From Arthrobacter endolithicus (GTDB taxonomy: Bacteria > Actinomycetota > Actinomycetes > Actinomycetales > Micrococcaceae), in NCBI RefSeq assembly GCF_026627425.1, contig NZ_JAPNLH010000011.1, positions 62,001 to 126,000 on the forward strand: 64,000 nt of DNA, in the 5' to 3' direction. The stretch's first letter is position 1, and each line of letters starts with the position of its first letter. Below the pieces are notes generated by a model. That model was not told the origin of the DNA, made no database searches, and saw only the letters and a list, made by a program, of their open reading frames with translations. The position numbers and the translations under genes were made by a program. Below are positions 22,409 to 25,113 of this stretch, in pieces.

Positions 22409-22519
22409 GCTGGTGAGGGCCGCTTGGCCGGATTCCTACGTTTCCTGGACCATCTTTTGGGTCCGGCGCCGGTTTCAGGCTAAGATGATACGTCGGTCAT
22501 ATGTTCTACAGGAGTTCTC

Positions 22520-23089
22520 ATTAGCGCAACCAAGTTGGGCAATCGCCTGGACCCGGGCTCGTCTTTAGTCGTTATGGTTAAGGACATCGGGCGTGCAGGC
22601 AGCATGCGGACCCTGCAGGAAAGCGTGGCCACACCGAAGGATTTCGGGGTGCCGATCATTGGCGTTCAGGAAGGGTCCTCAATGGATCTGGATCTGAGGC
22701 TGGAGGGCGTACACGAAGGAATTCTGGTATCCGGTACCGCATCCGTCGAAGTGACGGGTGAATGTGCCCGCTGCCTGGATCCCCTTGCGTATGGCCTTGA
22801 GGTCAATGTGCAGGAACTTTTCTCCTATGGGGAGCCGTCCAACAACGGTGCCCCCGCAGGGGAGGACGAAGAAGAGCAACGTTGGATCGAGCACGATGCG
22901 ATCGATCTCGAACCGGTGTTGCGGGACGCAGTGGTAACAGCGCTGCCGTTCCAGCCGGTGTGCCGGGAAGACTGCCAGGGATTGTGTTCCGAATGCGGAA
23001 TCCATCTGGTGGATGAGCCGGGGCACCACCACGAGGTCCTGGACCCTCGCTGGGCCGCCCTACAAGGCTTAACCGGCAAAGACAGTTAG
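22520..23089 (+). CDS. DUF177 (YceD) family protein, probable ATT start
   Basis: A metal-site-like protein of the DUF177/YceD family, normally paired with rpmF as here. Cys pairs are in ECARCLDP and CREDCQGLCSECG. Its function is linked to large rRNA/ribosome accumulation in plants and bacteria, but the mechanism is unclear. The only good ribosome site (AGGAG, 22510-22514) stands 5 bases before an in-frame ATT at 22520 reading ISATKLGNRLDPG. No ATG or GTG is near. TTG 22535 and ATG 22574 lack a ribosome site. I therefore favour a rare ATT start (189 residues); the alternative is TTG 22535 (184 residues). Confidence 0.85.
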   Translation: MSATKLGNRLDPGSSLVVMVKDIGRAGSMRTLQESVATPKDFGVPIIGVQEGSSMDLDLRLEGVHEGILVSGTASVEVTGECARCLDPLAYGLEVNVQELFSYGEPSNNGAPAGEDEEEQRWIEHDAIDLEPVLRDAVVTALPFQPVCREDCQGLCSECGIHLVDEPGHHHEVLDPRWAALQGLTGKDS

Positions 23090-23151: not shown

Positions 23152-23355
23152 GTGGCTGTTCCCAAGCGGAAAATGTCCCGCTCGAATACACATGCCCGCC
23201 GGTCTCAGTGGAAAGCCACTGCTCCCGCCCTGGTCAAGACCGTTGAAAACGGTCGCGTGACCTACAGCATGCCGCACCAGGCCAAGGTCGTCACCGACTC
23301 AGCCGGAACCGCGCTGTACCTTGAGTACAAGGGTCGCAAGGTCGCTGACGTCTAA
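23152..23355 (+). CDS. rpmF: 50S ribosomal protein L32 (cysteine-free form)
   Basis: A 67-residue protein opening [20 protein letters not shown], the universal L32 start. It has no cysteines, so it is the zinc-independent (C-) form common in actinobacteria. GTG start with an AGAAAAGAG-type purine-rich leader. It follows the DUF177 gene by 62 bases and precedes rnc by 10, the standard order. Confidence 0.97.
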
Positions 23356-23365
23356 GACTCAGGCG

Positions 23366-24133
23366 ATGAAGTATCCTGCCGGTGATGCGGCGGGCAAGCA
23401 AATTCAGGCCCTGCCTGAGCTGCAGGCCGCGCACCAACTGCTGCTGAAGCGTCTCGGCGTCGATATCGACGCCGAGACGCTTTGTCTTGCCCTGACGCAC
23501 CGCTCCTATTCATATGAAAACGGCGGGATTCCCACGAACGAGCGTCTGGAGTTTCTCGGCGATTCCATTCTGGGTTTCTCGGTGACGGACGCTTTGTACA
23601 GGGATAATCCGGGTCTGCCCGAGGGGGATTTGGCCAAGCGGCGTTCGGCTGTGGTCAGTACCAGGGCACTGGCTGGGCTGGGCCGTAAACTCGGTATTGG
23701 CGAATTCATCTACCTCGGTGCGGGCGAGCGCCTGACCAATGGCAAGGACAAGTCGTCAATTCTGGCGGACACCATGGAAGCCCTGATCGGTGCAACTTAC
23801 CTGTCCAACGATCTCGAGACCGCTCGGCAGTTGGTGATGAGACTGGTGGGTCCACTCCTGTTGGATGCCGGCGCTCTCGGCGCCGGTACGGATTGGAAGA
23901 CCAACATCCAGGAGATCGCCGCGAGTAGGCATCTGGGTCCGGTGCAGTACGTGGTCACCGGCTCGGGCCCGGATCATGCGCGGTCTTTTGTCGCCGTCCT
24001 CCAGATCGGCGGCCTCGACTACGGCACCGGCACGGGGAATTCGAAGAAGGAAGCGGAGCAGGAAGCCGCGGCCGACGCCTGGAAAGTCCTTGCAGCGCGC
24101 TTCCCCACCAGCCACCCTGCGGGCTCCGTCTAG
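23366..24133 (+). CDS. rnc: Ribonuclease III
   Basis: A 255-residue double-strand-specific RNase that processes rRNA precursors and mRNAs. The catalytic signature [20 protein letters not shown] and the second acidic patch [15 protein letters not shown] (D/E metal ligands) are present. The dsRNA-binding domain fills about residues 170-245 ([36 protein letters not shown]). ATG at 23366, 10 bases after rpmF. The frame is open further upstream, but that overlaps rpmF and is not used. mutM follows 2 bases after the stop. Confidence 0.95.
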
Positions 24134-24135
24134 GC

Positions 24136-25113
24136 GTGCCGGAGCTTCCCGAAGTTGAGGTGGTCCGGCGGGGACTTGAACGCTGGGTCACCGGCCGGAC
24201 CATCACGGCCGTTCAGGTCCCGGATCCACGGTCGATTCGCCGCCATGCCCTCGGCGTGGAGGATTTCCGCGGCAACCTGATCGGTGCGAGGGTGCTGGAT
24301 GTGGTGCGCCGCGGCAAGTTCCTGTGGCTTCCGCTCAGTGACAGGGCGAAGGGCGACGGCGCGGACGACGACAGGGTGGACGACGACAGGGTGCCCCACA
24401 CTGCGCTGATGGCGCACTTGGGCATGAGCGGACAGCTGCTTATGCAGGACCCTTCGCAGCCGGACGAGAAGCACCTAAAAGTCCGTCTGACTCTTTCCAG
24501 CGTCGAGGATGCGCCGGAGGAACTCCGATTTGTGGATCAGCGGATTTTCGGCGGGTTGTTCGTCACTGCACTGATTCCGACGGCGGACGGGCTCCCGGGC
24601 GGGCAATCGGCGCTCTCCCTGCCGCTGATCGCTGCGGAGGCTGCCCACATTGGCCGTGATCCGTTGGACCCGGCCTTCTCCCAGGAGGCTTTCTACCAGA
24701 GGATTCGATCGCGCAAGACGGGATTGAAGCGTGCTCTTTTGGACCAGAGCCTGATCTCCGGGATTGGCAATATATATGCCGATGAAGCCCTGTGGCTGGC
24801 CAAGGTGCATTTTGCCCGTCCCACGGAGACCCTGCGCCGGTCCGATGCCCAGCGGGTAGTGGATGCAGCCCGGGATGTGATGAGGCTGGCGCTGGACGCC
24901 GGAGGCACGAGCTTCGACTCCTTATATGTCAATGTCAATGGTGCGTCCGGATATTTTGCCCGGTCGCTGAACGCCTACGGACAGGAGGGCGAGCCGTGCG
25001 CACGCTGCGCAGCGCTGGGCCTGCAGACCCGGATCCGCCGGGACTCCTTCATGAACAGGTCATCCTTTAGCTGTCCAGTGTGCCAGCCCCGTCCACGGAA
25101 CGGGCGCTGGTAG
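24136..25113 (+). CDS. mutM: Formamidopyrimidine-DNA glycosylase with repeat insertion
   Basis: A 325-residue base-excision enzyme that removes 8-oxoguanine and formamidopyrimidines. The N-terminal [13 protein letters not shown] supplies the catalytic Pro2 and Glu3. [10 protein letters not shown], the [12 protein letters not shown] helix-two-turn-helix and the zinc finger ([10 protein letters not shown] .. [11 protein letters not shown]) are intact. Between [12 protein letters not shown] and MAHLGMSG there is an extra acidic stretch with DDDRV repeated, coded by an exact 15-base tandem duplication (24363-24392). GTG start. Confidence 0.94.
24363..24392 (+). repeat. 15-bp x2 in-frame tandem repeat in mutM
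   Basis: Two exact copies of ggacgacgacagggt code for a doubled DDDRV element in the loop before the HLGMSG motif. The unit is a multiple of three, so the frame is kept. Confidence 0.9.

Follow-up and report, generated by a model that had tools for sequence, protein, structure and literature searches.

Which codon opens the DUF177/YceD gene of Arthrobacter endolithicus, and what would an unusual codon imply for the control of this gene? The question is raised by the window, i.e., the stretch of 64,000 nucleotides from contig NZ_JAPNLH010000011.1 analyzed here, for which an earlier note had proposed an ATT start codon and, as a consequence, autoregulation as with infC. The ATT/ATC codon class is known from infC, which encodes initiation factor IF3 and is autoregulated because AUU is rejected by IF3 itself. 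To our knowledge, few bacterial genes with AUU or AUC starts have been characterized. Screening of titles and abstracts of the open-access literature yielded no report of a non-canonical DUF177 start. Gene callers limited to ATG, GTG and TTG would misplace the DUF177 start in many genera.

The start site and its gene

In the window, the AGGAG motif is followed by the spacer TTCTC (22515–22519) and by ATT, which opens a frame of 189 codons closed by the stop codon TAG at 23087–23089 (Table 1). These coordinates bear out the distance of exactly five bases given in the earlier note. Read in frame from the TAA at 22481, the codons are TAA GAT GAT ACG TCG GTC ATA TGT TCT ACA GGA GTT CTC ATT, and an in-frame codon scan between this TAA and the ATT revealed zero ATG, GTG, TTG or CTG codons. 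The remark that no ATG or GTG is nearby accordingly holds in frame; the neighbouring ATG at 22501 lies in the wrong frame and was for this reason rejected as DUF177 start. The first canonical in-frame codons downstream of the ATT are the TTG of codon 6 and ATG 22574 (codon 19), the latter falling inside the conserved N-terminal stretch of DUF177. Residues 2–5 following the ATT are Ser-Ala-Thr-Lys. The bare pattern AGGAG-N5-ATT was found once in the window, compared to a mean of 0.78 in shuffled sequences, of which 55 out of 100 contained it at least once. Because 0.78 occurrences per window are expected by chance, the weight of the argument rests on position and conservation and not on the motif.

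Table 1. Coordinates of features at the DUF177/YceD locus of the window.
Feature	Position	Strand	Basis or remark
TAAGAT, probable -10 box	22481..22486	+	TAA doubles as in-frame stop ahead of ATT
Out-of-frame mini-ORF, ATG-7 codons-TAG, overlapping ATT	22501..22524	+	same layout in 39/62 family genomes
Shine-Dalgarno (SD) AGGAG	22510..22514	+	sequence; its GGA codon has the lowest variability of the region, 0.41 bits
ATT start codon of DUF177/YceD (very probable)	22520..22522	+	ATT or ATC kept, always in frame; ATG/GTG at matching codon in two lineages
DUF177/YceD gene, 189 codons plus stop	22520..23089	+	PF02620 YceD, 110.9 bits, cut-off 33.2
TTG, codon 6, rival or secondary start	22535..22537	+	20 nt from AGGAG; canonical codon 10 codons before motif in 20/100 distinct loci
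rpmF, ribosomal protein L32, next gene	23152..23355	+	PF01783, 41.3 bits, cut-off 21.3
rnc, RNase III, third gene of presumed operon	23366..24133	+	PF14622, PF00636, PF00035
mutM-like gene, fourth of presumed operon	24136..25113	+	PF01149, PF06831

The gene product scores above the curated PF02620 cut-off and its gene adjoins rpmF, as is characteristic of DUF177/YceD. A coaD-like gene (Pfam) is located upstream. As judged from their spacing, DUF177, rpmF, rnc and the mutM-like gene presumably form an operon. The E. coli yceD gene begins with ATG and differs in this respect from the gene in the window. In E. coli, yceD is co-transcribed with rpmF, and 23S rRNA was reduced in a yceD knockout, as was plastid 23S rRNA in maize duf177a mutants (PMC5049393). 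YceD/DUF177 of E. coli and plants represents the same protein family, adjoining rpmF and with the RNase III gene linked in Actinobacteria; start codons are not treated in the accessible part of that publication (PMC5049393).

Conservation of the start codon

In order to compare the start site among relatives, 395 genomes of the family Micrococcaceae and 297 genomes of the order were searched, and the DUF177 gene was found in 387 and 294 of them, respectively. It was located in 259 loci (duplicates included), among them 80 named ones mostly representing Arthrobacter, Paenarthrobacter and Pseudarthrobacter. Sampling was uneven and comprised the best 30 loci of the 387 matching family genomes, the best 80 of 315 named loci, and additional loci from missing genera. 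The named loci overlap in part with unnamed ones; after removal of duplicates by sequence, 118 distinct family loci were screened for GGAG-N4-7-ATH regardless of frame. An ATT, ATC or ATA codon lay four to seven bases past GGAG in 100 of these loci, and in each of the 100 it was in the DUF177 frame (90 ATT, nine ATC and one ATA, the latter being a false positive in locus L170, which really starts with ATG). This codon lies 8, 12, 15 or 19 codons ahead of the first conserved motif (21 in the false positive). Since these distances vary by whole codons, the frame is kept by insertions and deletions, and the stretch following the ATT behaves as coding sequence. Moreover, entropy was 0.52 bits at the start codon and 0.41 bits at the GGA codon of the SD sequence, versus 2.3–3.3 bits at the five codons following the start. 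In 79 of the 100 loci, the first canonical codon past ATH was not reached before the conserved motif; in 20, it stood ten codons ahead of this motif.

In total, 175 genomes were classified by rule, 80 of which belong to the family. Class A, featuring ATH with an SD sequence and zero canonical codons in the stretch scanned, comprises 41 of the 80 family genomes. Class B, in which a canonical codon without SD is present in addition, comprises 21, including one wrongly placed genome (L148) that really starts with ATG. The rest use a canonical codon with SD (16 genomes) or without SD (one genome), or show both types (L170, really ATG). An ATT or ATC start was thus assigned to 61 genomes in 22 of 32 family genera (54 ATT, seven ATC; the ATA of L170 excluded). 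The L32 gene follows DUF177 in each of the 144 family loci assigned to class A or B.

ATG or GTG is used in ten of the 32 family genera, indicating that the rare start codon is not indispensable. Genus g28 (L149, L151) carries ATG at the matching codon, within GGT-GGT-CTC-ATG-AGT, 19 codons from the motif, i.e., at the distance at which g18, g21, g23, g24 and g30 carry ATT or ATC. Likewise, within genus g6, the matching codon is GTG in L157 but ATC in L158. Genera g2, g4, g11–g15, g17 and g22 contain ATG or GTG at other distances. The earlier note had named an ATG or GTG at the matching position in relatives as support for its proposal, and L149, L151 and L157 provide it. A sequencing error at 22520, which it had considered as a refutation, is very unlikely because the same ATT is present in genome G098 (L003, protein 94% identical) and in many other relatives. 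Based on this comparison, which supports ATT as the start of the gene, translation of DUF177/YceD very probably begins at ATT 22520. As a side observation, two contigs titled Acidobacteria MAG (L041) and Sporosarcina beigongshangi (L059) encode DUF177 proteins 68% and 65% identical to that of the window and possess a leader like those of Micrococcaceae relatives; these records are probably mislabelled or mis-binned.

Within the order, the ATT/ATC codon at SD distance, in frame and lacking a better canonical start, is conserved across species beyond the family, namely in f5, f8 and f15. All three f5 genomes fall into class A. In f15, class A or B applies to 11 of 12 genomes, and the remaining one (L224) features ATT together with a far upstream GTG; in L207 of this family, an in-frame TGA is located two codons ahead of the ATC. 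In f8, six of nine genomes have an ATT or ATC start; L208, L213 and L214 of this family are ambiguous because a GTG four codons upstream of the ATT/ATC overlaps their ribosome site. Fourteen further f8 loci comprise five with ATC (one with overlapping GTG), seven with GTG and two unassigned; among the 18 extra loci, L330 and L333 were left without start class. The f8 loci L208, L213, L214 and L337 share the GTG overlapping GGAG four codons ahead, an arrangement resembling the replacement of ATT/ATC by a canonical start, and L211 and L325 kept the GTG alone. Among 71 genomes of 25 other families, none was assigned to class A or B.

When the two start types were mapped on a tree of 89 DUF177 rows, seven changes sufficed, whereas shuffled labels required 30.0 on average and none of 500 shuffles was as low; a block of 33 family rows exclusively carries ATT or ATC. 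This tree leaves out short loci and therefore holds no f5 and only one f8 row; the labels of L148, L170 and L224 were set by hand. In genus g116 of f21, seven of 19 loci (L171, L173, L178, L183, L191, L195, L338) lack the usual ATG two codons earlier, leaving CTG as the start-like codon closest to the SD sequence. DUF177 may start with CTG in these seven loci; other canonical codons occur farther upstream in L178, L191 and L195.

Competing start sites and the leader

Initiation could alternatively occur at TTG 22535 or ATG 22574, with AGGAG-N5-ATT being part of an untranslated leader. The canonical codon located ten codons before the motif in 20 of the 100 distinct loci (ATG in L004 and L009) would fit such a downstream start, as would the TTG or ATG found at codon 6 in the window's genus and its relatives (ATG in L004). 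However, as the earlier note had pointed out, the TTG lacks a ribosome site of its own, the only SD sequence being the one 20 nt away, and it was rejected as main start. Furthermore, 79 of the 100 loci contain no canonical codon ahead of the conserved motif, and both the whole-codon indels between ATT and motif and the low variability of the ATT compared to the codons following it argue against an untranslated leader. A start at one of the two downstream codons is hence considered highly improbable. Equally small chances are given to the reading that the mini-ORF, whose stop codon overlaps the ATT, delivers ribosomes reinitiating on ATT by translational coupling. Mini-ORFs with the same end point occur in 39 of 62 family genomes (12 of 23 genera), but in the other 23 genomes, which keep ATT/ATC, the mini-ORF is shifted or missing. 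It therefore appears dispensable for the ATT/ATC start and was rejected as a requirement. In addition, ATG 22501 is not preceded by an SD sequence, and the overlap with ATT follows from the A-A or A-G after the ATT.

Regarding the leader itself, a TANNNT hexamer is located 28–50 nt ahead of the start in 99 of the 100 distinct family loci, mostly as TAAGAT at 38–40 nt. We read the conserved TAAGAT as a probable -10 box, although a strict sigma-70 scan did not find a promoter at the leader. In the predicted centroid fold, the SD sequence and the AUU are unpaired. The minimum free energy fold accounts for 5% of the ensemble and engages part of the SD sequence in base pairs, which counts against the ATT start. 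A stable leader structure was rejected, as 178 of 200 shuffled sequences fold at least as well (z +1.14).

Control by IF3 and comparison with infC

Autoregulation as known for infC, which the earlier note had attached to the ATT codon, finds no support at this locus. The product matches YceD only, and infC is a separate gene in the same genome (G000:C66); the DUF177 product is thus not one that rejects its own start codon. Since it represents YceD (PF02620) and not IF3, autoregulation does not follow from the ATT, and control by IF3 in trans would be expected instead. By analogy to infC and sigR, we infer that IF3 control of the DUF177 start is likelier than autoregulation. AGGAG five bases upstream would set the initiator tRNA on AUU, and IF3 on the 30S subunit would reject this codon as it does others than AUG, GUG and UUG; DUF177 should for this reason be translated weakly and inversely to IF3, like infC. 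Because many genera have retained the codon class, weak, IF3-sensitive initiation of a 50S-assembly factor was probably selected, its benefit being presumed. Taken together, an ATT start at 22520 combined with IF3 sensitivity of DUF177 is regarded as probable. If so, the IF3-sensitive start would couple a 50S-assembly factor to the balance between IF3 and 30S subunits.

Precedents exist in other bacteria. In Streptomyces, sigR is translated from a GTC start repressed by IF3, and SigR made from this start was lowered by extra IF3 and raised in IF3 fidelity mutants (PMC5472188). This gene resembles DUF177 in having a non-canonical start outside infC in an actinobacterium. It differs in its codon, in encoding a sigma factor, in its reported conservation in Streptomyces and in that IF3 control was demonstrated, whereas for DUF177 it is proposed (PMC5472188). 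In Staphylococcus aureus, cvfC1 and ccpN start with AUU and AUA, respectively, and the reference list of the same publication includes, by its title, an AUU start for E. coli pcnB (PMC13009471). These three genes likewise combine a conserved non-canonical start with a good SD sequence; in contrast to DUF177, whose start rests on comparison, they are other genes from other phyla with initiation mapped by experiment (PMC13009471). DUF177 would accordingly join the known class of non-canonical, presumably IF3-discriminated start codons.

The ATT could also be the start codon and merely set a low, constant expression, the IF3 level being irrelevant in the cell. S. aureus reporters with non-canonical starts reached approximately 10% of AUG expression in poor medium, and the AUU gene cvfC1 showed no medium effect (PMC13009471). 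Moreover, several family genera do without ATT/ATC. The response of SigR to IF3 dosage and fidelity in Streptomyces speaks against constant expression (PMC5472188), which we consider unlikely.

Extending IF3 sensitivity of the ATT start to the neighbouring genes, IF3 might control a small ribosome regulon in this order, consisting of infC and DUF177-rpmF-rnc. A 30S excess over IF3 would then lead to more AUU/AUC initiation and thus to more IF3 and more 50S-assembly factor, free IF3 serving as one sensor that balances initiation capacity with large-subunit production. This model is speculative and more doubtful than likely. With a widely conserved 50S-assembly gene that uses the same class of start codon as the IF3 gene in four families, a direct test of IF3-centred control over ribosome production would be feasible.

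The infC gene of the own genome provides a yardstick for the start site, with AGGAG-TTACAC-ATT-AGC compared to AGGAG-TTCTC-ATT-AGC at DUF177. Both genes agree in codon class, in AGGAG layout and in a role in the translation machinery. They differ in that the DUF177 product is not IF3, leaving it without autoregulation, and in that ATT or ATC occupies the infC start position in all 61 genomes examined (the own genome plus 60 selected ones), compared to only part of the lineages for DUF177.

In the own genome (3.96 Mb), AGGAG-N5-6-ATTAGC was counted three times versus once in the reversed control, and the looser AGGAG-N5-6-ATTAR three times versus seven times. The looser pattern is therefore not enriched. 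Two of its three sites, DUF177 and infC, are start-like, and the third lies antisense within a helicase gene. In 12 relatives, 45 sites of AGGAG-N5-6-ATTAR were obtained versus 33 in the reversed control; for 15 of the 45, the assessment relied on place and letters. When the 45 sites were screened for a third gene of this kind, the 26 sites remaining besides DUF177 and infC did not exceed the control; no further start-like site recurred among 29 of the 30 loci around the relatives' sites (L362 left out). Ten of the 45 sites correspond to DUF177 and nine to infC, and some of the other sites, e.g., L363, are followed by open frames after the ATT.
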